Part shown: in pieces, positions 14,091-53,553 of the stretch | How the letters are laid out: each line of letters starts with the position of its first letter | Position numbering within the stretch: the first letter of the stretch is position 1 | NCBI GenBank assembly: GCA_947472765.1 | Contig: CANJCM010000004.1 | Span: 1 to 64,000, forward strand | DNA: 64,000 nucleotides | Direction: 5' to 3' | Source of the DNA: Opitutia bacterium | Lineage (GTDB): Bacteria > Verrucomicrobiota > Verrucomicrobiia > Opitutales > Opitutaceae | The notes under the pieces: generated by a model | What the model was told of the DNA's origin: nothing | Databases searched by the model: none | Seen by the model: the letters and a program-made list of their open reading frames with translations, nothing else | Translations under genes and position numbers: made by a program

Positions 14091-15758
14091 ATGAACTCCC
14101 TGCTCCGGGTACTCTCCCTTCTCGCGGTCGGCGCGCTGCTGGTCGCGCCAGCGGGAACGGCAGCGGCAGCCGCCGGTGCTCCGGCGGCCTACCAGTGTCC
14201 GATGCATCCGTGGATCAAGTCGGACAAGCCCGCCAACTGCACGATCTGCGGCATGAAGCTCGTCCTAGCCGTAGCCGGCAAGGCGAACGCACCGGGCACG
14301 GTGACGTTCATGCCCTCGATGATTACGACCATCGGCCTCGAGACGTCGCGCGTCACGCGCCAGGCGCTGAGCCGCACACTGCGGGTCAACGGCCGCATCG
14401 ACGATGACGATACCCGGCACCGGATCATCTCCGCCCGCGTGCCCGGCCGGATTGAGCGCCTCGACATCACCTACCTCGGACAGAAGGTGGAAGCTGGCGC
14501 GCCGCTCGCCACGATCTACAGCCCGGAAATTCTCTCCGCCCAACGCGTGTATCTCGAACGGCTCCGCGCCGGCGAGGGCGCCTTCCCCGTCGCCGAACGC
14601 GCCGCCGCCCGCGAGCGGCTGCTCGAGCTCGGCCTGACCGAGGCCGACTTGGTCGCGGTGGAAAAGAGCCTCAAGCCTTCCGCCGTCGTGCCGATTCGCG
14701 CGCCCGTCGGCGGCACCGTGGTCAGCAAGTCGGTTTACGAGGGCCAGTACGTCCAGACCAGCGATCGCCTGTTCGAAATCGCCGACTTCTCCTCGATGTG
14801 GTTCGTCTTCGAAATCTACGAGCAGGACATCCCGTGGGTCCGCGTCGGGCAGACCGTCGAGATCACCACCCGCGCCGTCCCCGGCGAAATCATCACCGGT
14901 CCGGTTGCCTTCATCGATCCGAACTTCGACGAGACGACGCGCACCACCCGGGCCCGCGTGGTGATCAACAATCCGCATCCCGCCTCGCTCACCGGTCAGG
15001 ACCACGTGCTGCCCCATCGCGTCCCCGCCCAGGGCCGGGTGCTGCTGGAATCCCCCGCCGTGCTCGCCGCGCCCCGCTCCGCCATTCTCGATGCCGGCCG
15101 GGGCCCCGTGGCTTATGTCGATGTGGGCAACGGCAATTTTGAAGCGCGGCAGTTGCGCGTCGGACGCCGCGGCGACGCCCTCGTGGAAATTCTCGAAGGC
15201 CTGCACGAGGGTGAGAACGTCGTGACCACGGGCGCACTGCTCGTCGATGCGCAGGCCCAGTTGCAAAGCGAGGCGGCGGGCCACGTTCCCGGCGGACCGG
15301 TGCCGGTGGCACCGGCGGCGTCCCCCACCGAAGTCACGGTCCGCGATCCATTGCCGGCAGCCGAGGCTCCTTCCGCGACCGCCAGCCGCGACGCCGACGA
15401 CTCTGATCTCGCGGCCCTGGCGCGCGTGGCGATCGAAGGCGCGAACGCCCTCGCCGCCGACGATTACGCGGCGTACCGGAAATCATTCCCGGCCCTCGCC
15501 CAGGTTGCCGCGAATTATCCCGCGCTCCCAAAGCTCGTGGCCGGCGACAACCTCCGGTCCGCCCGGCTCTCCTTTGAGTCCTGGAGCACCGCCGTCGCCG
15601 ACCTGCTCAAGCCACACCGCGAGCATCTCGGTTTGAAAATCTTTCAGTGTCCCATGACGCCCGTCCTCGGCAAAGGGCGCTGGGTCCAGCGCAGCCAACC
15701 GGCCCGAAACCCGTTTTTCGGATCGTCGATGGCCGACTGCGGCACGGAGCTGCCGTGA
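14091..15758 (+). CDS. cusB: CusB-like RND adaptor with HMBD and C-terminal DUF3347
   Basis: 555 aa periplasmic membrane-fusion protein. Signal peptide (1 to about 29), then a heavy-metal-binding domain (C36-P-M-H ... C50-TIC53-GM), then a CusB-type barrel and lipoyl-like region (RVPGRIERLDITYLGQKV, EIYEQDIPWVRVGQ, VINNPHP). The C terminus (about 440-553) is an extra DUF3347 domain (KIFQCPMTPV, NPFFGSSM, DCG). This is longer than the ~410 aa E. coli CusB because of the two metal domains. It would carry Cu(I)/Ag(I) to the pump encoded next. No outer-membrane factor gene is seen in the operon. Confidence 0.88.
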   Translation: MNSLLRVLSLLAVGALLVAPAGTAAAAAGAPAAYQCPMHPWIKSDKPANCTICGMKLVLAVAGKANAPGTVTFMPSMITTIGLETSRVTRQALSRTLRVNGRIDDDDTRHRIISARVPGRIERLDITYLGQKVEAGAPLATIYSPEILSAQRVYLERLRAGEGAFPVAERAAARERLLELGLTEADLVAVEKSLKPSAVVPIRAPVGGTVVSKSVYEGQYVQTSDRLFEIADFSSMWFVFEIYEQDIPWVRVGQTVEITTRAVPGEIITGPVAFIDPNFDETTRTTRARVVINNPHPASLTGQDHVLPHRVPAQGRVLLESPAVLAAPRSAILDAGRGPVAYVDVGNGNFEARQLRVGRRGDALVEILEGLHEGENVVTTGALLVDAQAQLQSEAAGHVPGGPVPVAPAASPTEVTVRDPLPAAEAPSATASRDADDSDLAALARVAIEGANALAADDYAAYRKSFPALAQVAANYPALPKLVAGDNLRSARLSFESWSTAVADLLKPHREHLGLKIFQCPMTPVLGKGRWVQRSQPARNPFFGSSMADCGTELP

Positions 15759-15890: not shown

Positions 15891-18800
15891 ATGATTAACG
15901 GTCTTATCAAATGGTCGCTCGAGAACCGGTTTCTCGTCCTCTGCGGCACGATCATGCTGCTGGCCTGGGGCGCGTTCGCGGTGCGTCAGGTGCCGATCGA
16001 TGCCATTCCCGATCTGAGCGAGAATCAGATCATCGTCTACGCTGACTGGGACGGCCGCAGTCCGCGCGAGGTCGAGGACCAGGTCACCTACCCGCTCTCC
16101 GTCAATCTCCAGGGCCTCGCGGGCGTCCGCACCGTGCGGGCCACATCCATGTTCGGTTTCTCGCTGATCACCGTCATCTTCGAGGACAAAATCGACAACT
16201 ACTTCGCCCGCACCCGGGTGCTCGAGCGGCTCAATTATCTGGGCAACGTGCTCCCGCCGGGCGTGACCGCGCGACTCGGACCCGACGCGACCGGGCTCGG
16301 CTGGGTCTATCAATACTACCTCAAGATCGATCCCACGGGCGCCAAGTACGATCTCGGTCAGTTGAGGGCGCTGCAGGATTACTTCGTCCGCTACCAGCTC
16401 GCCGCGGTCCCCGGCGTCGCCGAGGTCGCGAGCATCGGCGGCTTCGTCCGCCAGTGGCAGGTGGAGGTCTCGTCGCTGCGGATGCGCCAGGCCGGCGTGT
16501 CGCTCGATGAAGTTTTTGCCGCGATCGCGAAGAACAACCTCAACGTCGGCGGCCGCACCGTCGAGGAGAACGGGCTCGAGTTCGTCGTCCGCGGTCGCGG
16601 CCTGATTAGTTCCGCCGCGGACCTCGAGGAAATCGCGATCACGATGCGGAACGACGTTCCCGTCTACCTGCGCGATGTCGCCGCGGTCCAGATCGGCGGC
16701 GACTACCGGCGCGGAACCCTCGACCTCGACGGTCACGAGGTCGTCGGCGGCACGGTCGTGATGCGCACCGGCGAGAACGCCTATCGGGTCATTCAGGACG
16801 TGAAGGCCCGCATCGCCGAGATTGGCCGCGGGCTGCCCCCGGGGGTGACGATCGAGCCGTTCTACGATCGCAGCGACTTGATCGAGCGCGCGATCAACAC
16901 CCTGGAGCACACGCTGTGGGAGGCGGTGCTGCTGGTGACGCTGATGCACGCGATCTTCCTGTTCCACTTCCGCAGCATCCTGATCGTCACCGTCCCGCTG
17001 CCCGCCTCGATCCTGATCGCGTTCATCCTGATGAAGGAATTCGGGATCCAGTCGCACATCATGTCGCTCACCGGGATCGCGATCGCCATCGGCGTGCTCG
17101 TGGACGCCGGCATCGTGATGGTCGAAAACGTCATCCGGCACTGCGAACTCGCCGAGGCCGAAAACCGCCGCGCGAACCCCGGCGCCAAGCTGACGGCCCG
17201 CGACTACTACCGCATCACCCTCGAGGCCTCGCAGCAGGTTGGCCGGCCCATCTTCTTCGCGATGGGGATCATCATCCTCGCGTTCGTCCCGATCTTCACG
17301 CTCACGGGCCAGGAGGGTAAACTCTTCCACCCGCTGGCGTGGACGAAGTCCTTCGCGATGCTCGGCGCGACGGTGCTCGCCGTCACGCTGGTGCCCGTGA
17401 TGTGCACCTTCCTGGTGCGCGGCCCGTTTCACGCCGAGGATCGAAATTGGGTGATGCGCGGTCTCCTCGCGATCTACGACCCGGTCCTCGAATGGGCGCT
17501 CCGCTGCCGGAAGACCGTCCTCGCCCTCGCCGCCACGCTCCTCGCGTTCTGCCTCGTCATCGCTTTCGGCATTCCAGAGTCCTTCCACTCGGCACTCGCC
17601 AGTCGCCATTCGGCACTGGCCGCCAAGCTGCCCCGCGGTTTCGGCAGCGAGTTCATGCCGACGCTCGAGGAGGGCTCGCTGCTCTTCATGCCCGTGCTCC
17701 TGCCGAGCACTTCGCTCACCGAGATCAAGCGGATCATGTCGTGGCAGGATCGCGTCATTCGCGAAACGCCCGAGGTCGCGAGCGTGGCCGGAAAACTGGG
17801 ACGCTTCGACACCGCCACCGACCCCGCGCCCGTCGAAATGATCGAGACCACGATCATGCTGCGCCCGCCCGCCACCTGGCGGCCCGGCCTCACGAAGGCC
17901 CAGCTCATCGAGGAACTCACCGGCAAGCTGACCCAGGTCCCGGGCTACGTTCCCGGTTTCCTCCAGCCGATCGAGAACCGCGTGCTCATGCTTTCCACCG
18001 GCATCCGCGCCCAGCTCGGCGTCAAAATCTTCGGCAACGATCTCGAGGCGCTCCAGCAAAAGGCCTTCGCCGTCGAACAGGTCGTAAACAAGATCCCCGG
18101 CGCCACCGGCGTCGCGCCTTCGCGGGTCCAGGGCAAACCCTACCTCGAAATCACCGCCGACCGCACGGCCCTCGCCCGCTATGGCCTGAGCGTCGAGGAC
18201 GTGCTCGCCGTCGCCGAAACCGGCCTCGGCGGCCGCACGGCCACGACCTCCCTGCAGGGCCGCGAACGCTGGCCGGTCCAGGTCCGCTATGATCGGGCCG
18301 ACCGCGAGGATCTCGATCGTCTCGGCGCTCTGCCGATCGCGCTGCCACCCCGGACCGCGAAGCCGGGCGGCGCGAACGAGACGGCGATGATGCGCTATAT
18401 TCCGCTCGGCCAGGTCGCCACGATCGAGCGCGTGATCGGCCCGAACGAAATCGCGAGCGAGAACGGCCGGCTGCGCGTGTTCGTCCAGGCCAACGTCGTC
18501 GGCCGCGACCTCGGTGGCTTCGTCGCCGACGTGAAGCGCGAGATCGGCCGGCAGGTCACGCTGGATCCCGGCATGACCGTCGAGTACGCCGGCCAGTACG
18601 AGAATCAGCTTCGCGCCCGGCGGACGCTGCAGTGGATCATGCCGGCGGTGCTGCTGATCATCTTCCTGGCACTCACGATCACCTTCCACTCCGCCATCGA
18701 GGCGGCGCATGTGATCCTCGCCGTGCCGTTTGCCCTCACCGGCGGCGTGCTGCTGCAATGGCTGCTCGGCTACAACTTCAGCGTCGCCGTCTGGGTCGGC

Positions 18801-19169
18801 TACGTCGCGCTCTTCGGCACCGCGATCCAGACGGGCGTCGTCATGGTCATCTATCTCGAGGAAGCCGTAAAACGAAAGCTGGCGGAGAAGAGTGGCGCTA
18901 CGCTTTCGCGAGCCGAGCTGCTCGCCGCGATCAAGGAGGGTGCGCGGCTGCGGCTGCGGCCGAAAGTCATGACCGTGGCGACCACCATCGCGGGACTCGT
19001 GCCAATCTTCTGGAGCACACGCCCTGGCGTGGAGATCATGCGGCCCCTTGCCGCACCGGTTGTCGGCGGGATGATTTCGTCGCTCGTCCACATCCTGATC
19101 GTCACACCCGTGATATTTGCGTGGCTCCGGGAGCGGAAGCACGCGAGGTCGGAGGTCGACTCCGCATGA
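15891..19169 (+). CDS. cusA: CusA-like heavy-metal RND efflux pump
   Basis: 1092 aa inner-membrane proton-driven exporter. An AGGAGG sequence sits 7 bases before the ATG. N-terminal membrane helix, large periplasmic loops and the TM4 motif GVLVDAGIVMVEN are present; the second half has TAIQTGVVMVIYLEEAV, as in HME-4 pumps. Three methionines that line the Cu(I)/Ag(I) path of E. coli CusA (M573, M623, M672) have counterparts M600 (LLFMP), M650 (VEMIETT) and M700 (LMLSTGI) at the same 50-residue spacing. Residues about 563-580 (ESFHSALASRHSALA) look like an inserted palindromic element. It overlaps the next gene by 4 bases. Confidence 0.94.
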   Translation: MINGLIKWSLENRFLVLCGTIMLLAWGAFAVRQVPIDAIPDLSENQIIVYADWDGRSPREVEDQVTYPLSVNLQGLAGVRTVRATSMFGFSLITVIFEDKIDNYFARTRVLERLNYLGNVLPPGVTARLGPDATGLGWVYQYYLKIDPTGAKYDLGQLRALQDYFVRYQLAAVPGVAEVASIGGFVRQWQVEVSSLRMRQAGVSLDEVFAAIAKNNLNVGGRTVEENGLEFVVRGRGLISSAADLEEIAITMRNDVPVYLRDVAAVQIGGDYRRGTLDLDGHEVVGGTVVMRTGENAYRVIQDVKARIAEIGRGLPPGVTIEPFYDRSDLIERAINTLEHTLWEAVLLVTLMHAIFLFHFRSILIVTVPLPASILIAFILMKEFGIQSHIMSLTGIAIAIGVLVDAGIVMVENVIRHCELAEAENRRANPGAKLTARDYYRITLEASQQVGRPIFFAMGIIILAFVPIFTLTGQEGKLFHPLAWTKSFAMLGATVLAVTLVPVMCTFLVRGPFHAEDRNWVMRGLLAIYDPVLEWALRCRKTVLALAATLLAFCLVIAFGIPESFHSALASRHSALAAKLPRGFGSEFMPTLEEGSLLFMPVLLPSTSLTEIKRIMSWQDRVIRETPEVASVAGKLGRFDTATDPAPVEMIETTIMLRPPATWRPGLTKAQLIEELTGKLTQVPGYVPGFLQPIENRVLMLSTGIRAQLGVKIFGNDLEALQQKAFAVEQVVNKIPGATGVAPSRVQGKPYLEITADRTALARYGLSVEDVLAVAETGLGGRTATTSLQGRERWPVQVRYDRADREDLDRLGALPIALPPRTAKPGGANETAMMRYIPLGQVATIERVIGPNEIASENGRLRVFVQANVVGRDLGGFVADVKREIGRQVTLDPGMTVEYAGQYENQLRARRTLQWIMPAVLLIIFLALTITFHSAIEAAHVILAVPFALTGGVLLQWLLGYNFSVAVWVGYVALFGTAIQTGVVMVIYLEEAVKRKLAEKSGATLSRAELLAAIKEGARLRLRPKVMTVATTIAGLVPIFWSTRPGVEIMRPLAAPVVGGMISSLVHILIVTPVIFAWLRERKHARSEVDSA
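17589..17617. repeat. Palindromic element in frame within cusA
   Basis: Contains TCGGCACTCGCCA followed by TCGCCATTCGGCA, the core of the intergenic inverted repeat found 1.7 kb upstream at 15770-15857. It adds about 15-18 residues between a membrane helix and the conserved FGSEFMPTLEEGS segment, where other CusA proteins have a shorter linker. Confidence 0.65.
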
Positions 19170-19780
19170 CCTCCGTCCGTCTCTGGACCCGCGATCTCCA
19201 CCTTTACGTCGGCCTCTTTCTGTCGCCATTCCTGCTGGTCTTCGCCGTCAGCACCTGGGTGCTGAATCATCCGCCGGCCGAAAGAAAGATCCCGGTACCT
19301 TCCCCAGTCGAGTCGCGGACGCTCACGCTGGCCGATGACGCCAAGGTCGGATCGCTCGCCCAGGCTCGCGGGATTCTCGACCAGCTCCAGCTCACCGGTG
19401 AAATCGACAACGTCCGTCATAACACCAAGGCCGGGCGGCTCGTCATCCCCGTCTCTCGGCCGGGCGAACTCACGACGGTCGAGGTCGATTTGAAGTCGAG
19501 CACTGCGACTCTGAGCCATCAGGCCGAGGGCATGGCCGCCGCACTCGTGTACCTCCACAAGCGGCCCGGTCCGCACCTCATCCAATTTCGCGGCAACTGG
19601 ATCTACATGGCCATCTGGGGGTGGCTCACCGACGCCGTGGTCTACGCCACCGTGTTCGTGACCGCCACCGGACTTTACCTCTGGTGGGCGTACAAGTCAG
19701 AGCGCACGACCGGCTGGGTGATGTTGATCACCGGATTGCTGACCGTCGGTGGACTCGTGGGCGCGATGGTCAGTGCATGA
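19166..19780 (+). CDS. PepSY-associated membrane protein I
   Basis: 204 aa. An N-terminal helix follows RDLHLYVGLFLSPFLLVFAVSTWVLNH-type sequence (the H-x-Y/W-xGL signature), then a periplasmic PepSY-like domain and a second pair of C-terminal helices (TDAVVYATVFVTATGLYLWW). PepSY-TM proteins are often found with TonB receptors or metal uptake and efflux genes; some reduce ferric ions. The ATG overlaps the cusA stop (ATGA), so it is translationally coupled. A similar half-size protein follows four bases later. Confidence 0.75.
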   Translation: MTSVRLWTRDLHLYVGLFLSPFLLVFAVSTWVLNHPPAERKIPVPSPVESRTLTLADDAKVGSLAQARGILDQLQLTGEIDNVRHNTKAGRLVIPVSRPGELTTVEVDLKSSTATLSHQAEGMAAALVYLHKRPGPHLIQFRGNWIYMAIWGWLTDAVVYATVFVTATGLYLWWAYKSERTTGWVMLITGLLTVGGLVGAMVSA

Positions 19781-19784
19781 CGCC

Positions 19785-20396
19785 ATGAAATCCTGGCTCC
19801 TGAAAATCCATCTCTGGCTCGGGCTGTATTTCCTGATCTTCCTCTGGCTGTTTTCCGCCTCGGGGTTGCTGCTGAATCATCACTGGGATTTCGCCGAATT
19901 CTGGACCAATCGCCGGCAAACGACCGCCCAGCACGCGCTGAAGCCACTCAACACCCAGTCGGATCTCGACCGCGCGAACGAGGTGATGAGGCAGCTCAAT
20001 CTGGCCGGCGAAGTGGAATGGACCGCGAGCCGCCCCACCGACCAGCGCCTCGATTTCCGCGTCGCGCGGCCGGGGCGCAACGTGGAGGTCAAAGTGGATC
20101 TCACCGCGATGTCCGCCTCCGTGCAGGACGTGCAGCTCAACGGCTGGGGCAGCCTCCGCGCGCTGCACACCTTCAACGGTGTCGGGGCCAACGCGACCCG
20201 CGCGGAGCGCGATTGGAACCTGACCAAGCTCTGGACTTTCGCCATGGACGCCCTCGCCGCCGGGCTCGTCGCCCTCGTCGTGACCAGTGTCCTCCTCGCC
20301 TGGGAACGCCGCGATCGCCGCCGCGGGGCCGTGCTGGCCTTTGCGGCCGGGTGCCTCGTGTGTGGCTTCTTCGTCGTCGGCCTTGGGTGGCTTTGA
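19785..20396 (+). CDS. PepSY-associated membrane protein II
   Basis: 203 aa from ATG 19785. KIHLWLGLYFLIFLWLFSASG and LLLNHHW form the first helix with conserved His residues, then a PepSY-like domain, then C-terminal helices ending at residue 203. It is a diverged sibling of the previous gene and together they may form a heterodimer matching one full-length PepSY-TM protein. It is fourth in the efflux operon after cusB, cusA and PepSY I. Role in metal reduction or signal to the pump is inferred from position only. Confidence 0.72.
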   Translation: MKSWLLKIHLWLGLYFLIFLWLFSASGLLLNHHWDFAEFWTNRRQTTAQHALKPLNTQSDLDRANEVMRQLNLAGEVEWTASRPTDQRLDFRVARPGRNVEVKVDLTAMSASVQDVQLNGWGSLRALHTFNGVGANATRAERDWNLTKLWTFAMDALAAGLVALVVTSVLLAWERRDRRRGAVLAFAAGCLVCGFFVVGLGWL

Positions 20397-20659: not shown

Positions 20660-21076
20660 ATGAAACTCCTCACCCTGCTCCGTCTTCTGTCCGCTGCTCC
20701 CGTTGTCGCCACCGCGTTTGCCCAGCAGGCGGCTGCGCCGCTGACCGCCGAACATCAAACTTTCCTGTCCCAATATGAGGGCGTCCGCGCCGCGCTGGCG
20801 TCTGACGATCTCGATGCCGCCAAGAAGGCGGCTTCGTCGCTGACGGGCGACACCGCCAAGGCGATTGCCGGAGCCGATTCGCTGAAGACTGCCCGCGAGG
20901 CCTTCAAGTCGCTCAGCAAGGAAGCGCTCAAGATCGCCAAGGGCCAGCCGGGCTATTTCCACGCGCACTGCCCGATGGTGCCGGGAAAGCAGGGCGACTG
21001 GGTCCAGACGAAAAAGACGATCAACAATCCCTACTTCGGCAAATCGATGCTGAAGTGCGGCGAGATCCAGAACTGA
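20660..21076 (+). CDS. Exported DUF3347 protein
   Basis: 138 aa with a signal peptide (cleavage after TAFAQ). The C terminus carries the full DUF3347 signature: HCPMVPGKQGDWVQ, NNPYFGKSMLKCGE. The middle is helical (KKAASSLTGDTAKAIAGAD). A secreted copper-binding or chaperone role is inferred from the family and from the neighbouring copper genes. The next gene begins six bases after the stop, so the two are probably co-transcribed. The third DUF3347 copy in this window, and the closest to the Bacteroidetes-type consensus. Confidence 0.85.
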   Translation: MKLLTLLRLLSAAPVVATAFAQQAAAPLTAEHQTFLSQYEGVRAALASDDLDAAKKAASSLTGDTAKAIAGADSLKTAREAFKSLSKEALKIAKGQPGYFHAHCPMVPGKQGDWVQTKKTINNPYFGKSMLKCGEIQN

Positions 21077-21082
21077 TCGGCC

Positions 21083-22156
21083 ATGCCAATCGGGTCATCG
21101 GTCCGCCACGCCGCGGCCGCGCTGCTCGTGTTCGGCATCGCTTCGGGCCTGACCGCCCGGACGGAAATTGCCGCCGCCGCCCAGCCGCAGCTTGCCGTGG
21201 CCGCCGACGGCCAGGTCTGGCTCGTCTACGGCCATGGCAGTGAGATTTTCGTCGCGCGCTCGACCGACGACGGCGCCACCTTTACGCCCGCCGTTAGAGC
21301 CGTCACTGCCCCGAAGCTGATGCTCGGCATGCGCCGCGGCCCGCGCATCGCCGCCACCGGCGCCCGGGTGACGGTGACTTATGTGACGGACGAATTGCGG
21401 GCCGTGCATTCGAAGGACGGCGGCCGCACTTGGAGCGATCCCGTCGTGGTCAACGACGTACCCGGTTGCGCGCGGGAAGGGCTGCACGATCTCGCTTTGG
21501 GGCCCGACGGACGTTGCTTCGTCACCTGGCTCGATCACCGCAATGCGGGCATGGAACTCTGGTTCGCCGAATCCACCGACAGCGGGGCAACCTGGAGCCG
21601 GAACGCACAGATCTATCAATCATCCGATCGCACGATCTGTGAGTGCTGCCACCCGACCGCGCTCTTTGACGCTGCGGGCAATCTCGCCGTCATGTGGCGC
21701 AACGCGATCGCCGGCGATCGCGACATGTGGATCGCCACCCGCCCTGCCGGAGCCTCGAAGTTTTCCCCCGCACGCAAGTCCGGCGAGGGCTCATGGCAGC
21801 TCGCCGCGTGTCCCATGGACGGCGGCCGGCTCATCGCCCTCGGCAACGGCGACTTTGCGGGCATCTGGCAACGGGCCGGCACGGTGTTCTACGCCCCGCC
21901 GCGCGGACCGGAAAAACCGCTCGGCCCCGGCAAGCAACCCGTCGCGCTCGTCCAAGCCGACGGTACCCGCATCGTCTGGCAGCAGGGGACCGATCTCGTA
22001 ACGGCCAAACTTCCGAGTGCAGCTCAACCGACGAAGGTCGCGCCCGAAGCGCGTTTCCCGGTGCTCGCGGCGCTCCCCGCGAATCGCGGCGCCGTCCTCG
22101 CCTACGAGCAGGGCGCGACCAAGGACCCGCACCTCGTCATCGAGCGCCTCCCCTGA
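21083..22156 (+). CDS. Exported beta-propeller with CxCC motif, copy 1
   Basis: 357 aa, signal peptide, then BNR/sialidase-like repeats (VARSTDDGATF, VHSKDGGRTWSD, FAESTDSGATWS). No sialidase FRIP or catalytic Arg triad was recognised, so it is not called an enzyme. Conspicuous cysteines: C186, C188, C189 in ICECCHPT and C243 in AACPMDG. The same C-x-C-C plus C-P pattern occurs in two other proteins here (44236 and 51670), with spacing of 54, 54 and 53 residues. This suggests a conserved metal site in the propeller. It lies between DUF3347 and the Cu-ATPase gene. Confidence 0.78.
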   Translation: MPIGSSVRHAAAALLVFGIASGLTARTEIAAAAQPQLAVAADGQVWLVYGHGSEIFVARSTDDGATFTPAVRAVTAPKLMLGMRRGPRIAATGARVTVTYVTDELRAVHSKDGGRTWSDPVVVNDVPGCAREGLHDLALGPDGRCFVTWLDHRNAGMELWFAESTDSGATWSRNAQIYQSSDRTICECCHPTALFDAAGNLAVMWRNAIAGDRDMWIATRPAGASKFSPARKSGEGSWQLAACPMDGGRLIALGNGDFAGIWQRAGTVFYAPPRGPEKPLGPGKQPVALVQADGTRIVWQQGTDLVTAKLPSAAQPTKVAPEARFPVLAALPANRGAVLAYEQGATKDPHLVIERLP

Positions 22157-22400: not shown

Positions 22401-24764
22401 ATGCATCCGGATCACCGACCCGAACCAAGCGTCCCCTCCGATTCCGGGCGCGATGCTGCCGCTGGTACCGACCCTGCCGCCAAAGAGGGTCATTGCTGCC
22501 ACGGCCACGGCGGCGCGGACGTGACGCCACCCAAGGGCGCCGCCTACTTCTGCCCGATGTGTGAGGGCGTGGAGAGTGACCAGCCGGGCGATTGCCCGAT
22601 GTGCGGCATGGCTCTTGAGCGCAACCCGGCGTTCGCCGCGCCGGCGCGGACATTATGGACGTGTCCGATGCATCCGGAGATCGAGCAGGACCATTCGGGA
22701 GACTGTCCGATTTGTGGCATGGCACTCGAGTCGAAGACGGTGAGCGCGGCGCCGGAGCAGAATCACGAACTCATCGACATGACGCGGCGCTTCTGGATCG
22801 GCGGAGCGCTCGCACTGCCGGTTTTCGTGCTGGGCATGCTGCACCTCGTGCCGTCGTTGATGCACGTCGCCACCGCCCCGTGGAGCCGCTGGCTGCAACT
22901 CGTGTTGTCGACCCCGGTCGTCCTGTGGGCGGGATGGCCCTTCTTCGTCCGCGGCGCCAAGTCCCTCCGCTCGGGTCACTGGAACATGTTCACGTTGATC
23001 GCCATCGGCGTGTCGGCGGCGTGGCTCTACAGCATCGCGGCGTTCTTCTTCCCGAATTTTTTCCCGGCCAACATGCGGCCACACGGCGTGGTCGACGTCT
23101 ACTTCGAGGCCGCTGCGGTCATCATCGTCCTCGTGCTGCTCGGTCAGGTGCTTGAACTCCGCGCCCGGGCCCGCACCTCCAGCGCGATGCAGGCCTTGCT
23201 GCATCTCGCACCGCCGACCGCGCTGCGCGTCACGGCGGCGGGCGATGAGGAAGTCGCCCTCGCGCTCGTCCAGCCCGGCGAACGGCTCCGCGTGCGCCCC
23301 GGCGGGAAGGTGCCCGTGGACGGCGTCATCGAGGAAGGCGAGTCCGCGATCGACGAGTCGATGCTGACCGGCGAACCGATGCCGGTCGAAAAGAAGGCGG
23401 GCGACCGCGTCACAGGAGGCACCGTCAACGCGACCGGCAGTTTCGTTTTTCGCGCCGAGAAGGTCGGCGCCGACACGATGCTCGCGCGCATCGTTGCCCT
23501 GGTCGCAGAGGCCCAGCGCAGCCGCGCGCCGATTCAGGGGCTCGCCGATCGCGTGGCGGGTTACTTCGTGCCGACGGTGGTCTCGATCGCGATCCTCACC
23601 GCCGCACTCTGGTACTTCTTCGGTCCCGAGCCGCGGCTGGCCCATGCGATCGTGAATGCGGTCGCCGTGTTGATCATCGCCTGCCCGTGCGCCCTCGGAC
23701 TCGCCACACCGATGTCGATCATGGTCGGCGTCGGCCGCGGCGCGCAGTCCGGTGTGCTGTTCCGCCATGCCGAAGCGCTCGAGTTGCTCGGACAGGTGAA
23801 CTGGCTCGTGGTCGACAAGACCGGAACGCTGACCGAAGGCCGGCCCGCGCTCGTCGCCGCGGCGCCCGCCGGCCCGGTGGACGAAGTGTCGCTCATTCGT
23901 TTGGCCGCGTCACTCGAACGCTCCTCGGAGCATCCGCTCGCCGCGGCCCTCGTGCGCGGTGCGCTCGCGAGAAAAATTTCCCTCGTCGGCGTCACCGGCT
24001 TTCGATCCGTCACGGGCGGCGGCGTCGCCGGGTTCGTCGCGGGACAAAGGGTGGTCGTGGGCAAGCCGTCGTTCCTCGCGAGCGAGAACGTCACCGTCCC
24101 CGCCGACGCCGGGGAGCAGGCCGCCGCCTGGCAGGCGGAGGGCCAGACCGTGCTCTTCGTGGGCGCGGGTGGTCAATTTGCAGGGCTGCTGGCCGTGGCC
24201 GATCCGATCAAGGCCACGACCCGCGAGGCGATCGCCCAGCTGCATGCCCTCGGCCTGAAGATCGTCATGGCCACGGGCGACAACCGGCGGACGGCCGCCG
24301 CGGTGGCGAAGGAACTCGGGATCGATCGTTTCGAGGCCGAGGTCGATCCGGCGGGCAAGATCCGGCTCGTCGAGGCGCTGAAGCGCGACGGCGGCCGCGT
24401 GGCCATGGCCGGCGACGGCATCAACGATGCGCCGGCCCTGGCAGCGGCTGACGTCGGGATCGCGATGGGCACGGGCACCGATGTCGCGATGGAAAGCGCC
24501 GGGGTCACTCTCGTGCGCGGTGACCTCCGCGGGATTGCGCAGGCCGCGGGGCTCTCCCGCGCGACGATGCGAAACATCCGCCAGAACCTCTTTTTCGCCT
24601 TCGTGTACAACGCGGTCGGCGTGCCGATTGCGGCCGGCGCCCTCTATCCGATCTTCGGCTGGCTGCTCAGCCCAATCCTCGCCGGCGCCGCGATGAGCCT
24701 GAGTTCCGTCAGCGTGATTGGAAACGCGCTACGCCTGCGCCAGGGAAAGTTAGCGACCCGTTAG
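22401..24764 (+). CDS. copA: CopA-like Cu(I)-exporting P-type ATPase with two HMBDs
   Basis: 787 aa. N-terminal His/Cys-rich tail (HCCHGHGG), then two heavy-metal-binding domains (about 49-72 and 87-109, each CPM...C-P-x-C-G-M) in place of HMA domains. Eight helices follow, with C428-P-C430 in the sixth, actuator TGEPMPVEK, phosphorylation site D472-KTGT, SSEHPLA, and GDGINDAP. The C-terminal [13 protein letters not shown] and MSLSSVSV match the YN...MxxSS signature of Cu(I) transporters (P1B-1). The reaction is ATP-driven export of Cu(I), perhaps Ag(I). It stands alone after repeat A, without the regulator usually seen with copA. Confidence 0.93.
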
Positions 24765-43714: not shown

Positions 43715-44239
43715 TTATCTCGGTGGCGACTTCGAACGCGTCACGCGAACGAGCCACGCGTCGAGTTCCGCTGGATCAAGAACCCCGCTCCGGCCCGCAG
43801 CCTGATGGTCCGCCTCGAAGAAGTAGGCCCGCGGCAATTCCCCGCGCCACTCCGGATCGACGCTGTACCGGATGCGCTCCGCGAAATCGTCCGCAAACGC
43901 CCATGACTCGATCGCGCCGAGGCGCAACGGCGCGAGGGAACGCGCCACCTTGGCGTGCTCGTTCGGGCCGTCCGCGGCCACAAGGGCGATCGGGACCTGC
44001 GGATAGCGCGCGTGGATCGCGGTCAGGAGCACGATGTCTTCCTTGCAGGGCGCGCAGTGCAGCGACCAAAAAGCCAGGATGAAAGGCCGTCCGCGATTGG
44101 CTTCGCGAATCACCGCGAGACTGCCCGGTCCAAACGGCTTGAGCGTCGGACGCGGCGCAGTCGCCGCTCCAAGCCCGGCGAGCATCGCGACGAGCAGCAG
44201 CGGGATCCAACGAAGACAGATTCGCCGGATGCGTTTCAT
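43715..44239 (-). CDS. TlpA-like exported thioredoxin-fold protein
   Basis: 174 aa, membrane-anchored or signal peptide (RIRRICLRWIPLLLVAMLAGLG), thioredoxin motif C62-A-P-C65 in FWSLHCAPCKED, VPIALVAAD after it. It probably reduces or oxidises cysteine pairs in the periplasm or delivers electrons to metal-site proteins. The ATG overlaps the stop of the CxCC propeller gene by four bases, so it is translationally coupled to it. It is the last gene of the operon that begins with a small Cys protein and a TonB receptor; a role in maintaining the propeller's CxCC cysteines is an inference. Confidence 0.85.
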   Translation of the reverse strand: MKRIRRICLRWIPLLLVAMLAGLGAATAPRPTLKPFGPGSLAVIREANRGRPFILAFWSLHCAPCKEDIVLLTAIHARYPQVPIALVAADGPNEHAKVARSLAPLRLGAIESWAFADDFAERIRYSVDPEWRGELPRAYFFEADHQAAGRSGVLDPAELDAWLVRVTRSKSPPR

Positions 44240-45441
44240 GGGAAGGGGGTCACCGACAGCGGCCGCAGTCGCGTATTCCAGAACACATGGAATCGGCCTT
44301 TCCAGATCAGCAGCCGAGGATGATCCGAGGCCCCGTCGGCCGCCGTCAGCGCGACCTCCTGCCAGGTTTCCCCGCCGTCGGGCGACCGCAGCCCGCGCAA
44401 CTGCGAGCGGGTGCCATCGAATTCCTTCCAGACGACAGCCACCTCGCGGCCGAGGACGGCGACATCGGGACGCTCGGCCGTCTTGCCGCCAATCTTGCGC
44501 AGGCCCTCGACCCGTCCCTCACGCGGCCGGCCGTAGAAAACCCCAGGGGCTGCCGGCGAGGCCGTGAACCACACCGCATGACGGGTCCCATCGTCCGCGA
44601 CGGCGAGGGCCGGCCCTTGGTGCGGACACGCATCGATCGCCCAGCCATCGAAGGAGGCACGCTCCATCGGACCGGCCCGACCGTCCGGAGTGATCACACC
44701 GATCGCATGGTCGCGCAGGTTCGGCTCGAAGATGTGCCGCCAGAGCGCGACGACGCTTCCGTCCGGCCGCGGCACAAGTCCGATCCGGCAGCACTCGCAA
44801 CTATGGTCCGCGAGTTTGGTGTCGGTGCCGAAGCTCTTCCCGCGATTGTCCGAGATGGCGAAGTAGATGGCCGCCCCGCGATACGCGCCGGGACCGGCTG
44901 CCGGCGCCGCCACCTGATCCCGCTTGTCCACCCATGCCACCACCACGCGACCGCGCACATCGACCGTCAGCGCATCGAAGCGGTGCGTAATCACCTGGCG
45001 ATCGTGATGCACCGTCTGCGGTGCCTCGAAAGTCAGGCCCCCGTCGAGCGAACGCGTGAAGCGAATCTCCCCGGTGTAGGGCTTCGCCATCGGACGGGTC
45101 CACGTGACGTAGATCTCGCCCTGCGGCCCGAGCGCGATCTTGGGGCGGGCATCCGCGCCGGCGTCGGTCGGCTCGCTCTCGCGGCTCACGGCGACGGGAG
45201 CGGACCACGATTTTCCCAGGTCGCGCGAACGGCTGACGGAAACACCCGCCGCGGTCTTGTGCGCGGCCCAGAGCGTGCCCTGCGCATCGAAGGCGGCCGT
45301 CGCGCCGAGATCGACGAGGCCCGGCGAACCGGGCGTCGGATCGCCGTGTCCGGCGTGTTGCATCGCGCCGGGCTCGGCCGCGGACACGGAACGCGCGAGG
45401 AGCAGGAGCGACGTGAGTGCTGCAAGGGTCGTGAGTCTCAT
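44236..45441 (-). CDS. Exported beta-propeller with CxCC motif, copy 2
   Basis: 401 aa, signal peptide, then a His-rich start (MQHAGHGDPTP), BNR-type blades (SRSRDLGKSWS, TRSLDGGLTFEA) and a propeller core (GRVVVAWVDKRD, DNRGKSFGT). Cysteines C215, C217, C218 (HSCECCR) and C272 (DACPHQG) match the pattern in the other two copies. No sialidase active-site set is obvious. It follows the TonB receptor by about 20 bases and overlaps the thioredoxin-like gene. Possible function: periplasmic or surface metal binding, or electron transfer; unproven. Confidence 0.8.
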   Translation of the reverse strand: MRLTTLAALTSLLLLARSVSAAEPGAMQHAGHGDPTPGSPGLVDLGATAAFDAQGTLWAAHKTAAGVSVSRSRDLGKSWSAPVAVSRESEPTDAGADARPKIALGPQGEIYVTWTRPMAKPYTGEIRFTRSLDGGLTFEAPQTVHHDRQVITHRFDALTVDVRGRVVVAWVDKRDQVAAPAAGPGAYRGAAIYFAISDNRGKSFGTDTKLADHSCECCRIGLVPRPDGSVVALWRHIFEPNLRDHAIGVITPDGRAGPMERASFDGWAIDACPHQGPALAVADDGTRHAVWFTASPAAPGVFYGRPREGRVEGLRKIGGKTAERPDVAVLGREVAVVWKEFDGTRSQLRGLRSPDGGETWQEVALTAADGASDHPRLLIWKGRFHVFWNTRLRPLSVTPFP

Positions 45442-45461: not shown

Positions 45462-47648
45462 TTACCAGCGCGTTTCCACCCCGGCGTAGAAGGCCCGGGG
45501 AAGGCCCGGGCTGAAGACGGGCGTGTTGGAGGAGACCGACGCGCTGTCAGCAAAGCGCCGGTCCAGCGCATTGATGACGCGGCCGAAGGCGGACCAGTGG
45601 CGGGAGAAGGCAAAACTCGCCCGCAGGTTGAGCAAGTCGTGTCCCGGATATTTGCCGAACACCGCCGAGTTGCCCGCCTCGAGCCAGTAGGAGCCGATGC
45701 GAATCCACTCCACCTGCGCCATCGTTCGCCCATTCGGGACCCACGTCAGCCGCGTGTTGGCCAGCACGCGGGGCGCCGACTCGATCTCGCGACCGCTGAA
45801 GTTCGCTGTCGCCGTCACCCAGTTGAGGTAACGGTGCCGGGCGTACGAGAGTGCGGTGTCGAGCCGGAGCTGCCGCCCGAGCGCGACACCCAGGCCCGCT
45901 TCGAAACCGCGGTGGCCGGTCTTGCCGGCGTTGACGTTGGTGCTGATGTTGGTGGCGAGGTCGCGCTGGCTCACGAGGTCGTCGCGCTTCACGAGATCGT
46001 ACGCGACGAAGTCATACGACCAGTTCGCCACGGTACCGCGCAAACCCACCTCCATCTGCTCGGCCTTGATCGGCCGGAGCCCGAGGAGCAGGCCCGCCTT
46101 GGCCACGGCGTTGACCGCCGAGGCATCGTTGCCGGCGCGATAGAGCTGACCCTCGGAAGGGGCGCGGAAGCCCTGGTTGTACGACGCGAACAAGTGCGCG
46201 CCGCCGCCCAGCGCATACGTGGCGCCCAGCTTGGGACTCAGCCGCGCGAAGTCGGAGGAGTCCTGCGCCACCTGTCCGTAGTAGCGCGTGGCCCCGAGGA
46301 CGCTGGCCTGCACCGGGCCCGCCGGCAGGTGATTCCTCATCTCATAGGAGAGCGAATCGTAGCGCAGTCCGGCCGTCACGCGCAGCGCGCGCGTCGGGGA
46401 GAATTCCAGGTGGCCATAGGGCGAGGCGCTCTGGAACGTGACATGATAGTCGTAGATCCGGGTGCCGCGCGTGAAGGCACTGTAGACGGTATTCGCGCCC
46501 GATCCGGAGCGGGTCACGAGCAGGTTGTCCTCGCGCCGCGAACCGGGGCTGTGATCGAAATCCACGCCGGTGATGAAGCGCGTGCGGAAGGCGGGAAGAT
46601 CCTTCCGCCACTTCGCCAGCACGCCGTACGAGACGTTGTGGCCAACCTCGATCCGCGGGTCCGAGCTCAGGTTGAACGTGCCGTTCAGCTCCATGCTGTT
46701 GTCGCGAAAATACGGCGTGAACGAGAGCAAGCCCGTGCCAAGAGTCTGCGCGTACTCGACCGAGATCCGCGCCGCGCTGACCTTGCGGTAGGCGATCGAG
46801 AGATTATTCCGCGTCGGATGGTCGCGGTAATCGGCGAACGGCAGCGCGGAGTTGGCGCCGGTCTCCTGATCGATTTTGGAGACGCCGACGATCGCCTTGA
46901 CCGTACCGTTCGCACCGACGCGGCGATCGAGCCGGAAATTTCCGCTCTGGCGATCGTAACCGGTGCGATCGCGCCAGCCGTCGGTGTGGGTGACGTTGAG
47001 GTCGGCGCGAAATGCACCTTCAGAGACGGCATGTCCTCCGCTCAGCATGAGGCGGCGCGTGCCGAACGCGCCGAGTTCCCCGGAGAGCGCGAGCTCCGAC
47101 TGTCCGCTCGGCGCACGGGAGAGGATGTTTACGATCCCGCCGATCGCATCGGAACCGTACAACGCGGTGCCGGGTCCGCGGACGACCTCGATGCCACCCG
47201 CCATGGGAATATTCACCTCGTAAAGCGCGTTGTGGTTGAAGAAGCCCGTCGCGCGGATCGGGATCCCGTCCTCAAGGAAGAGATACACCGGGCTCGTGGT
47301 GAACGGCTGGCGGATGGCGGTGGTGTGGCCCTCGCCGTTGGTGACGGCGACGGCGACGCCGGGCACCTGGCCGAGCAACTGACCCGGATGGAGCGGGGCC
47401 GTCTGCCGGATCGAGTCCGGGCTGATGGCGCCAATCGAGGCGGGCGTTTCGACCAGCAACGCGCGCTCGCGCGTGCCGGTGACGGTGATGGGATCGAGGG
47501 AAATAGCGCCGGAGGTCGCGCCCGCAGGCGGCGCGGCACCCTGGCCGAGAGTGGCGCCCGGCGAGCCGAGCGCAAACACGGTCGCGAGGCCAAGGGTCCG
47601 CGACGAATTGAGAAGAAGGGCAGGAAACGAAATATTGAGACTTTTCAT
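45462..47648 (-). CDS. TonB-dependent receptor, metal-type candidate 1
   Basis: 728 aa, signal peptide, a TonB-box-like region (LDPITVTGTRE), plug (PASIGAISPDSIRQTAPLHPGQLLGQVPGV, FLEDGIPIRATGFFNHNALYEV, VVRGPGTALYGSDAIGGIVN), then a 22-strand-type barrel ending in VETRW. It imports a ligand across the outer membrane with TonB energy. It resembles the OprC/PfeA-type group only in overall length and plug; a copper or siderophore ligand is inferred from context. It is the second gene of a four-gene minus-strand operon: small Cys protein, receptor, CxCC propeller, thioredoxin-like. Confidence 0.85.
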   Translation of the reverse strand: MKSLNISFPALLLNSSRTLGLATVFALGSPGATLGQGAAPPAGATSGAISLDPITVTGTRERALLVETPASIGAISPDSIRQTAPLHPGQLLGQVPGVAVAVTNGEGHTTAIRQPFTTSPVYLFLEDGIPIRATGFFNHNALYEVNIPMAGGIEVVRGPGTALYGSDAIGGIVNILSRAPSGQSELALSGELGAFGTRRLMLSGGHAVSEGAFRADLNVTHTDGWRDRTGYDRQSGNFRLDRRVGANGTVKAIVGVSKIDQETGANSALPFADYRDHPTRNNLSIAYRKVSAARISVEYAQTLGTGLLSFTPYFRDNSMELNGTFNLSSDPRIEVGHNVSYGVLAKWRKDLPAFRTRFITGVDFDHSPGSRREDNLLVTRSGSGANTVYSAFTRGTRIYDYHVTFQSASPYGHLEFSPTRALRVTAGLRYDSLSYEMRNHLPAGPVQASVLGATRYYGQVAQDSSDFARLSPKLGATYALGGGAHLFASYNQGFRAPSEGQLYRAGNDASAVNAVAKAGLLLGLRPIKAEQMEVGLRGTVANWSYDFVAYDLVKRDDLVSQRDLATNISTNVNAGKTGHRGFEAGLGVALGRQLRLDTALSYARHRYLNWVTATANFSGREIESAPRVLANTRLTWVPNGRTMAQVEWIRIGSYWLEAGNSAVFGKYPGHDLLNLRASFAFSRHWSAFGRVINALDRRFADSASVSSNTPVFSPGLPRAFYAGVETRW

Positions 47649-47769: not shown

Positions 47770-48153
47770 TTAAACGCGCGGCGGTGTCAGCAGCGGAGCC
47801 GAGGGCTCCACACCATGAAACGTGAATTCCCCGAGGGCAAAAGTGACACTGGCGGGCTTCGCGATGACGACCGGCGAAGCAGGCAGGTACACGAGCACCG
47901 TCTTGCCCGGCAGGCGCGCCTCCGTGGCCTGACCCGTTTCATCGTGCTGCTGCTTGGCGGCGGAGATCGCCTCACACAGGGTGCAGCGTCCCTCGGGGCT
48001 GAAGGTCTGCGCCAACGCGTCCGCGACGGACATCGTCTCGACATTCGTCGCCATCATCCGAGCCCAGGCGAACGCCTGCACCAAATCCCATTGGCTCCCC
48101 GTGGCGAAGAGCCAGGCGGCCAGCGTCAGGACGATGGGAAGTTTTCGATGCAC
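47770..48153 (-). CDS. Small exported CxxC protein
   Basis: 127 aa with a GTG start at 48153. Signal-like N terminus (VLTLAAWLFATGSQ), then a helix (FAWARMMATNVETMSVADALAQTF) and CTLCEAISAAKQQHDE with a CxxC pair, then a low-complexity tail. Similar small proteins occur in Verrucomicrobia next to metal receptors, but I do not know a family name. It lies 121 bases before the receptor gene, in the same direction. A metal-sensing or periplasmic chaperone role is inferred only from the CxxC and position. Confidence 0.6.
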   Translation of the reverse strand: MHRKLPIVLTLAAWLFATGSQWDLVQAFAWARMMATNVETMSVADALAQTFSPEGRCTLCEAISAAKQQHDETGQATEARLPGKTVLVYLPASPVVIAKPASVTFALGEFTFHGVEPSAPLLTPPRV

Positions 48154-50959: not shown

Positions 50960-51664
50960 TTGTCCGACCCCGCTTCCACCTTCCTCAGCGTGCCCGCGCC
51001 GCTCTGGCAGTCGCTCTGGCTCACGCTGCGGCTCGCGTTCATCACCACTCTCGCGCTCGGCGTGCTGGGCCTGCCGCTGGCCCACTGGCTGAATACCACG
51101 CGCCAGCGCCTGGCGCCGGCCATCGAAACGCTCGTCGCACTGCCCATTGTGCTTCCGCCAACGGTAATCGGTTTCTACCTGCTCGTCGCGTTTTCGCCGC
51201 AGCATCCACCAGGCAGTTGGTGGCGCGACACGGTCGGCACCTCGCTCGCGTTCTCGTTCACCGGTCTCGTGATCGCGTCGGTCTTCTACTCGCTGCCATT
51301 CGCGGTGCAGCCGTTCCAAGCCGCGCTCCGCGGGGTACCGCGCGAGTTGCTCGATGCCGGCGCGACGCTCGGAGCCACACCGATGCGCGTGTTTCTGCGC
51401 CTGCACGCCCCGCTCGCGTGGCGCGGGATCGCCGCCGGCCTGACGCTCGGCTTCGCCCACACCCTCGGCGAATTCGGTGTCGTCCTCATGATCGGCGGCT
51501 CGATCCCCGGCGTCACCAAGGTCGCCAGCATCGCGCTCTACGACGAGGTTCAGGCCCTCGCCTACCCGCAGGCCCACGCGTTCGCCGCGACGCTGCTCGT
51601 CATCTCCTTCATCCTGCTGCTCGGCGTCACGCTGTTGCAGCGCCGGCGACCGCCGATAGTTTGA
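50960..51664 (+). CDS. modB: ModB-like molybdate ABC permease, orphan
   Basis: 234 aa with a TTG start at 50960; no ATG is available upstream in frame. Five to six membrane helices, IVLPPTVIGFYLL and the EAA-type loop LDAGATLGATPMRVFLRLHAPLAWRGI are diagnostic for ModB. LGEFGVVLMIGGSIPG is also typical. Neither modA nor modC is next to it; the CxCC propeller gene starts five bases after its stop. It might work with a binding protein and ATPase coded elsewhere, or with the neighbouring metal genes. Low similarity of the 5' end to other ModB proteins leaves the exact start open. Confidence 0.85.
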   Translation: MSDPASTFLSVPAPLWQSLWLTLRLAFITTLALGVLGLPLAHWLNTTRQRLAPAIETLVALPIVLPPTVIGFYLLVAFSPQHPPGSWWRDTVGTSLAFSFTGLVIASVFYSLPFAVQPFQAALRGVPRELLDAGATLGATPMRVFLRLHAPLAWRGIAAGLTLGFAHTLGEFGVVLMIGGSIPGVTKVASIALYDEVQALAYPQAHAFAATLLVISFILLLGVTLLQRRRPPIV

Positions 51665-53217: not shown

Positions 53218-53553
53218 ATGCGCGCGGTGAAGATGGCGGCGCTCTCCGAACTGGCGAACCGACTCCGGCGCACCTGCGCCGTGGCGGGTGCTCTGCTCGT
53301 GCTGGTGCTCGCCATCCTGTCGGTCAGCCCAGAGCTGCACCACGCACTGCATGACAGCAGCGGCCTCACCGCCGGCGAAGGTTGCGCGGTGGATTGGTTC
53401 GCGCAGGGCGTCGATCTGACGGTCGCGGCAAAGGCCTGCCTGCCCCCCGTGGCTGCGTGGCACGCTCCCGTGCCGCGGCAAGCCGCCGAATTGCGGATCA
53501 CGCCGCCGCGTTACCTGCGGCTGCCGGAGCGCGGTCCACCGATCGAGGTTTGA
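53218..53553 (+). CDS. Small exported protein before the TonB receptor
   Basis: 111 aa with a possible signal peptide (TCAVAGALLVLVLAILSVS) and His and Cys residues (ELHHALHDSS, GCAVDWFAQGVD). It resembles the DUF2946-type small proteins (HHxxH followed later by CAVxxFAQG) that lie next to copper- or zinc-related TonB receptors. It is followed 125 bases later by the receptor. The analogous position in the other module is taken by the CxxC protein at 47770. Role unproven. Confidence 0.6.
   Translation: MRAVKMAALSELANRLRRTCAVAGALLVLVLAILSVSPELHHALHDSSGLTAGEGCAVDWFAQGVDLTVAAKACLPPVAAWHAPVPRQAAELRITPPRYLRLPERGPPIEV

Follow-up and report, generated by a model that had tools for sequence, protein, structure and literature searches.

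Exported beta-propellers with four conserved cysteines, probably copper-handling proteins, in an Opitutia bacterium and its relatives

We studied three paralogous genes of an Opitutia bacterium, all located in a 64,000-nucleotide stretch of DNA (the window, analysed here as a whole), whose products are exported beta-propellers with the cysteine motif CxCC...CP. They represent a widespread bacterial family that probably handles copper instead of cutting sugars. In this reading the binding of metal is inferred, on the grounds that the four cysteines lie on one predicted face and that the genes belong to operons of copper uptake or export. We give a rough probability of 0.55 to the proposal that an exported seven-bladed propeller handles copper through a four-cysteine site, in uptake (classes II and III, see below) and in efflux (class I). 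The observations that carry it are the homology of the copies, the conservation of their cysteines, the predicted fold and topology, the gene context and a fusion to CusF.

Three propeller genes in the window and their neighbours

The sequence-only reading had described in these proteins (copies 1, 2 and 3; Table 1) a sialidase/BNR-like propeller and four cysteines, the one of CP coming 54, 54 and 53 residues after the third one of CxCC, and these spacings were confirmed. Pairwise BLASTP among the copies gave E values of 4e-16, 1e-9 and 4e-12; since the three are thus homologous, a chance origin of the shared motif was rejected. Copies 2 and 3 were 25 and 28% identical to copy 1, roughly in line with the flanking divergence that had been described. 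The N-termini of all three resembled signal peptides, as judged by eye, and the ATG of copy 3 at 51670 was internal to a longer open frame. A profile of the three copies had 10 matches at E<=0.01 in their own genome (4.97 Mb), of which only copies 1-3 were full-length. The motif was absent from the five weaker matches that were retrieved (L004-L008, of seven), and copies 1-3 were the only CxCC...CP propeller genes found in the genome with those five of seven checked.

As had been stated, copy 1 lies beside a DUF3347 gene and a copper-type P-ATPase gene, and copies 2 and 3 beside TonB receptors. The gene order of module 1 is CusB-like, CusA, two PepSY_TM-like, DUF3347, copy 1 and copper-type P-ATPase; that of module 2, CruR-like leader ORF, TonB receptor, copy 2 and thioredoxin/ResA-like protein; and that of module 3, ModB-like permease, copy 3, CruR-like ORF and ZnuD-like TonB receptor. 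The best match of the module 3 receptor was the ZnuD model NF038289 of NCBIfam, at 325.6 bits, under the 950-bit cut-off. Elsewhere in the window, 48232-49203 (negative strand), upstream of the module 2 CruR-like ORF, held two PF07485 (DUF1529/DUF1259) stretches; the ORF at 28266-29699 had an N-terminus similar, by eye only, to CobW-type GTPases, which are frequently linked to zinc supply; and 56167-64000 was a very long open frame (more than 2600 aa by the calls of the script), perhaps encoding an autotransporter-like surface protein.

Table 1 Features of the three modules, with positions in the window
Feature	Position	Strand	Remark
CusB-like adaptor with HMBD, module 1	14091..15758	+	
CusA/CzcA-family RND pump, module 1	15891..19169	+	
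PepSY_TM-like protein, module 1	19166..19780	+	
PepSY_TM-like protein, module 1	19785..20396	+	scanned as 19749-20393
DUF3347 protein, module 1	20660..21076	+	
Copy 1, class I CxCC propeller, exported, 357 aa	21083..22156	+	ORF, motif and model
CxCC of copy 1 (C186, C188, C189)	21638..21649	+	
CP of copy 1 (C243-P244)	21809..21814	+	
Copper-type P-ATPase with HMBD, module 1	22401..24764	+	
Thioredoxin/ResA-like protein, module 2	43715..44239	-	4 nt overlap with end of copy 2
Copy 2, class II CxCC propeller, exported, 401 aa	44236..45441	-	
CP of copy 2 (C272-P273)	44623..44628	-	
CxCC of copy 2 (C215, C217, C218)	44788..44799	-	
TonB-dependent receptor, module 2	45462..47648	-	
CruR-like leader ORF before module 2 receptor	47770..48057	-	CXXC, proline-rich end
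ModB-like ABC permease	50960..51664	+	directly upstream of copy 3
Copy 3, class III CxCC propeller, C-terminal CusF-like domain, exported, 490 aa	51670..53142	+	
CxCC of copy 3 (C195, C197, C198)	52252..52263	+	
CP of copy 3 (C251-P252)	52420..52425	+	
CusF-like C-terminal domain of copy 3	52879-53127	+	methionine ligands lost; wider of two spans, the narrower being 52915..53127
CruR-like leader ORF before module 3 receptor	53218..53553	+	single aligned Cys, PERGPP end
TonB-dependent receptor, closest to ZnuD, module 3	53679..55823	+	

Conservation, subfamilies and predicted fold

All four cysteines were present in 133 of 150 unique domain hits from the fetched loci, a survey that left out the own-genome loci L001-L008. 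The 17 hits without the full set comprised 10 to secondary blades, two to a non-member protein of archaeal origin, two from separate frames of a single broken gene and only three truly degenerate members (L126, L072 and L142, the last one partial). The Thermoplasmatales locus L015 was rejected as a family member. Because the profile used (A4) includes the cysteines, the survey is biased towards members that bear them. The spacing from CxCC to CP was 51-55 residues in 100 of 100 genes, picked by a motif pattern that allowed 49-57. The cysteines had been taken as the part of the sequence that was kept, and kept they are, but not alone: in 12 diverse relatives the invariant columns were G, W-x-D-x-R, C-x-C-C, R, R-D, W, C-P, G and W, and in 38 relatives C, C, C, R, D, W, C, P and G. 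W-x-D-x-R was looser than the cysteines, with its D in 123 and its R in 120 of the 150 hits.

The context of CP divided the family into classes: CPMDGG in class I (copy 1), CPHHGP or CPHQGP in class II (copy 2), CPVNGP and near variants in class III (copy 3), and a small class IV. A tree of 133 domains placed all 29 class I members in a clade of 30 (support 0.945), all 26 of class II in a clade of 27 (0.998) and all 64 of class III in a clade of 66 (0.863), each class being drawn from at least two phyla. The tree alignment contains the class-defining residues and omits copy 2 of the window, and the phylum labels were assigned by us from the searches that retrieved the loci. Since the classes are supported multi-phylum clades, the window genome holds one member per old subfamily, and the three copies did not arise by recent duplication in situ. 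At least one match was present in each of the 26 genomes searched from the same genus. Members occurred in 15 of 194 genomes from the window's phylum; for the phyla of G245 (a Rhodospirillales genome) and G242 (an Acidobacteria genome) the counts were 13 of 349 and 48 of 199, respectively. Each count includes the centre genome, and only 11 to 21 candidates were scored per genome.

AlphaFold2 models of copy 1 (pLDDT 87.2, pTM 0.86) and copy 3 (pLDDT 83.8, pTM 0.76) were read by us, from their strands, as seven blades of four strands each. The description as a sialidase/BNR-like propeller held for the fold, as a prediction, and less well for the sialidase part, for which the matches were moderate to weak: BNR_2 gave E 3e-10 with copy 1, above the cut-off, and 1e-6 and 0.03 with copies 2 and 3, below it, and the Asp-box pattern occurred three times in copy 1, three times in copy 2 and not in copy 3. 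In the models CxCC lies in the link that leads into blade 4, and CP in the next such link, which leads into blade 5. In copy 1, CxCC (186-189) precedes strand A of blade 4 (192-195) and CP (243) precedes strand A of blade 5 (249-252); W149-x-D151-x-R153 is at the end of strand B of blade 3, R206 near the end of strand B and R213-D214 at the start of strand C of blade 4, and W262 near the end of strand B of blade 5. Because the D-A and B-C connections of a propeller share one face, CxCC, CP and the conserved R, D and W should meet between blades 3, 4 and 5. The supposition that the four cysteines cluster in one site thus agrees with the models, which put them in adjacent D-to-A links on one face; it is inferred from topology only, and distances were not measured. 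The CP loop of copy 1 was of low confidence (mean pLDDT 68-69 over residues 231-250, below 50 at 240-242).

In structure comparisons copy 1 matched CylK (Z 30.8, rmsd 2.8 over 311 residues) and PLL lectins (Z about 28-30, rmsd 2.5-2.7 over 291-293 residues), and CylK was also the top match of copy 3 by Z (31.4, rmsd 3.1 over 335). Foldseek placed sialidases on top for copy 1 (E 2e-11) and PLL lectins for copy 3. The PDB structures of CylK, PLL lectins, L-Rha-GlcA lyases/PL25 and YncE, all seven-bladed, matched the propeller over most of the model (Z about 25-31) at 7-15% identity; we know of no comparable cysteine site in them. No copper-enzyme fold relative (thiocyanate dehydrogenase, N2O reductase) was present by name among the matches listed, which excludes nothing.

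One relative, L018, joins CusF, propeller and a CusF-like domain in a single chain (PF11604 E 6.4e-14, in two stretches). The C-terminal domain of copy 3 matched Pfam as a single sequence at E 0.04, under the cut-off; against ten neighbouring CusF proteins it gave hhalign 99.2% (E 1.4e-19), and the profile of those ten matches CusF/SilF structures (best E 2e-8). The MxM methionine ligands of the CusF copper site were replaced in the copy 3 domain, the histidine was kept, and a CxC was added upstream of the lost methionine pair. The domain in this form, with the methionines lost and CxC added, was kept in class III relatives.

Gene neighbourhoods across the family

Neighbouring genes were called by a custom script. 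Within three genes of 57 non-redundant loci, 300 of 302 neighbours (one was a duplicate and one was dropped) were scanned against Pfam as proteins cut to 330 aa, and the 25 commonest families were tallied. The controls were 20 stretches, 18 from the window's phylum and two from the G245 search, with no Bacteroidota, no plasmids and no matching to cysteine-less BNR genes. The per-locus counts used clusters built out of the very neighbours being counted, and the CruR-like class was defined by motif and position. Among the families listed, the 300 neighbours included Plug (26), Cu-oxidase_3 (9), CusF (8), E1-E2_ATPase (6) and PCuAC (4), and single batches held at least six AhpC-TSA, at least four ACR_tran, at least three each of DUF2946 and DUF305 and at least two each of CopB and SCO1. 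The 133 control genes had four Plug and three E1-E2_ATPase matches and none to copper-specific Pfam families with at least two members (one-member families were mostly unlisted).

Strict copper genes or CruR-like ORFs occurred within four genes of 30 of the 57 non-redundant loci versus 0 of 20 controls (p 6.6e-6), and strict copper genes without the CruR-like ones at 22 of 57 versus 0 of 20 (p 3.4e-4); for TonB genes the figures were 27 of 57 and 0 of 20 (p 3.2e-5). With CusA, CusB and Cu-ATPase also counted, they became 35 of 57 and 3 of 20 (p 3.2e-4), and P-type ATPases alone are uninformative, because three of the 20 controls have one. None of the named neighbour clusters was present at 12 of the 57 loci (17 of all 100). 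The expectation that homologues keep the cysteines and lie mainly in metal neighbourhoods was thus met, the neighbourhoods being specifically those of copper. Copper is favoured because the neighbours include multicopper oxidase, CusA/B, CusF, PCuAC, CopC and TonB receptors behind CruR-like ORFs; it is better supported than metal in general, and the identity of the metal and its binding are unproven.

By class, over all 100 loci, class I propellers (25 loci) were accompanied by CusA at 11 loci, multicopper oxidase (MCO) at 10, CusB at nine and Cu-ATPase at eight. Small exported YHS/TRASH-like proteins were also seen beside them at 10 of the 25 (e.g., L180:11309-11671). At the 25 class II loci, a TonB receptor occupied position -1 in 23 and PCuAC was present in nine, and the +1 gene was thioredoxin-like in 17 of the 24 that had one, so that the run is TonB receptor, propeller and thioredoxin-like protein; no thioredoxin-like gene was found at +1 in classes I (0/23), III (0/41) and IV (0/7). 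Class III (42 loci) had TonB at 23, CruR-like ORFs at 16, CusF at 15, ModB at 12 and MCO at nine, and class IV (eight loci) TonB at four and CopC at two. The Mod-like permease (12/42) and binding protein (9/42) of class III loci raise the question whether they import copper instead of molybdate.

Copper genes were nearby or in the same run in eight of 11 annotated plasmid stretches examined (Adhaeribacter, Runella, Methylomagnum, Roseovarius, Pseudosulfitobacter, Roseobacter, Roseivivax and Phaeobacter). No copper transporter was next door in those of Spirosoma (two copies) and Marinovum; a DUF326 gene adjoins the Spirosoma copies, and pSLIN02 and Marinovum have a gene for bilirubin oxidase or multicopper oxidase several kb away. 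Some of the family-bearing plasmids were typed as conjugative.

Small CruR-like ORFs, with a cysteine motif and a proline-rich end, immediately preceded TonB genes in 21 of 23 cases, including the two of the window, with gaps of 26-282 nt (121 nt for 47770-48057 and 125 nt for 53218-53553). All 14 aligned members of cluster 5, to which the former belongs, had CXXC and a PPR end; CXXC was absent from cluster 12, that of the latter, which had one aligned cysteine and a PERGPP end. Pfam DUF2946 gave no match at E<=1 with L145:10160-10549, which represents cluster 5, and none at E<=0.01 with the module 3 ORF, scanned as 53218-53550. According to the available part of the source, the nascent CruR chain of Bordetella (DUF2946; CXXC, RAPP) acts as a copper sensor that turns off the downstream TonB gene, 162 nt away (PMC9426467); CutF resembles CruR, again as far as the accessible text goes (PMC9973294). 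Because DUF2946 did not match the ORFs scanned and the module 3 ORF lacks CXXC, the window ORFs may be said to work like CruR/CutF without being members, an analogy of function. They are possibly a Verrucomicrobial kind of copper leader ORF overlooked by Pfam DUF2946.

Proposed role, alternatives and known systems

We propose that CxCC and CP, together with the nearby invariant Arg, Asp and Trp, would form one site on the ligand face, which in its reduced state would hold copper, most likely Cu(I), and that the propeller would relay the metal between a membrane transporter and a soluble partner. In classes II and III (copies 2 and 3) this would be uptake: copper would enter the periplasm through the TonB receptor, be accepted by the propeller and be received from it by PCuAC, CopC or CusF. 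The thioredoxin/ResA-like partner of class II would keep the propeller thiols reduced, which makes sense if they must stay so in the periplasm. Class I (copy 1) may act as a periplasmic copper buffer or delivery protein in an efflux/detoxification module of CusAB, Cu-ATPase and multicopper oxidase. Which metal is held, that it is bound at all, the redox state, the direction of transfer and the partners are our inferences. Little is known of how copper moves from outer-membrane receptors to the chaperones of the periplasm, and if the propeller is a copper acceptor, the sialidase label hides part of copper nutrition and resistance, on conjugative-typed plasmids too.

A bolder possibility, which we advance only tentatively, is that these are an undescribed class of periplasmic copper-acquisition proteins that strip copper from imported chelates. 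The arginines would capture the carboxylates of a Cu(II) chelate, the four-thiol centre would reduce the metal to Cu(I) and extract it for PCuAC or CusF, and the thioredoxin-like partner would recharge the centre by resetting its disulphide. Such a reductase would fit the invariant residues close to the cysteines (Arg, Arg-Asp and Trp), which lie on the face (D-A/B-C links) that binds ligands in propeller enzymes, and the thioredoxin-like gene of class II. It would also fit CrtA, a copper TonB receptor that imports chelated Cu(II) according to the accessible text of PMC12914433. However, the other classes have no such gene at +1, class I sits among efflux genes and no activity of any kind has been reported. 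If the idea were true, the propeller would supply the step now missing between copper TonB receptors and the copper chaperones of the periplasm, and efflux modules would have reused a paralogue. The sequence-only reading had also considered an electron-transfer component; the thiols and the class II partner are compatible with it, and nothing beyond them is.

Four cysteines are also the classic set for zinc, and a Zn(Cys)4-like structural site in a protein serving another purpose would accord with the ZnuD-like receptor of module 3; the copper-protein neighbours, the CusF fusion and the CruR-like leaders make this unlikely. It is also rather doubtful that the cysteines merely pair as disulphides in the oxidising periplasm, stabilising loops of an ordinary binding propeller. 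The protein is exported, its conserved cysteines are even in number, and a DsbA-family gene and a protein-disulphide isomerase gene occur in the Roseobacter and Marinovum plasmid stretches, respectively, but three of the cysteines fall within four residues and all are kept across phyla at about 25% identity, in a copper context. The receptor closest to ZnuD, the Mod-like ABC genes of class III and possible disulphides could nevertheless count against copper. We consider it very improbable that the protein is a genuine glycoside hydrolase or lectin whose place in copper loci is accidental, even with the BNR_2 match, sialidases among the best sequence and Foldseek matches of copy 1 and sugar-binding PLL lectins among the best structural matches. 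The arginine of the RIP motif defines GH33 sialidases, and this motif was absent from copies 1-3 and found, as a loose pattern, in two of 100 relatives; the context is that of copper, with no glycan context. A glycosidase, which the earlier judgement had also disfavoured, was rejected on the missing RIP motif of the three copies, and copper handling remains our preferred reading.

No published name for the family was found in the literature searched (most subscription papers were outside its scope), and neither Pfam nor NCBIfam has a dedicated family for the propeller; relatives are annotated as 'sialidase family protein' in public records. With the GH33 sialidases (Pfam BNR_2, PF13088) the family shares the propeller fold, Asp-boxes in copies 1 and 2 and an above-cut-off match in copy 1 only. 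Unlike them, it has no RIP motif (copies 1-3), four conserved cysteines, copper operons and its highest Z to seven-bladed structures. The periplasmic copper chaperone CusF/SilF (PF11604) is fused to the propeller in L018, recurs as the CusF-like end of copy 3 and is a neighbour at 15 of 42 class III loci, but the propeller itself is unrelated to it.

In the available part of a report on Thioalkalivibrio, the thiocyanate dehydrogenase (TcDH) cluster has, upstream with copCD, a BNR gene and an outer membrane receptor gene whose role is 'currently unknown', and of the TcDH-positive strains AKL 11, which lacks these two genes, proved the most difficult to adapt to thiocyanate (PMC5328954). This BNR gene, possibly related, is the sole published trace that we found, its cysteines being unchecked. 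The words 'propeller', 'sialidase' and 'BNR' have no occurrence in the accessible text of three papers on copper TonB receptors and CruR (PMC12914433, PMC12617631 and PMC9426467). The closest parallel to modules 2 and 3 is in their receptors: as far as the same partial sources go, CrtA (PMC12914433) and TccA (PMC12617631) are copper TonB receptors, and in CrtA/CruR operons the receptor lies behind a leader ORF, with PepSY_TM, PCuAC or AhpC_TSA genes in some of them.
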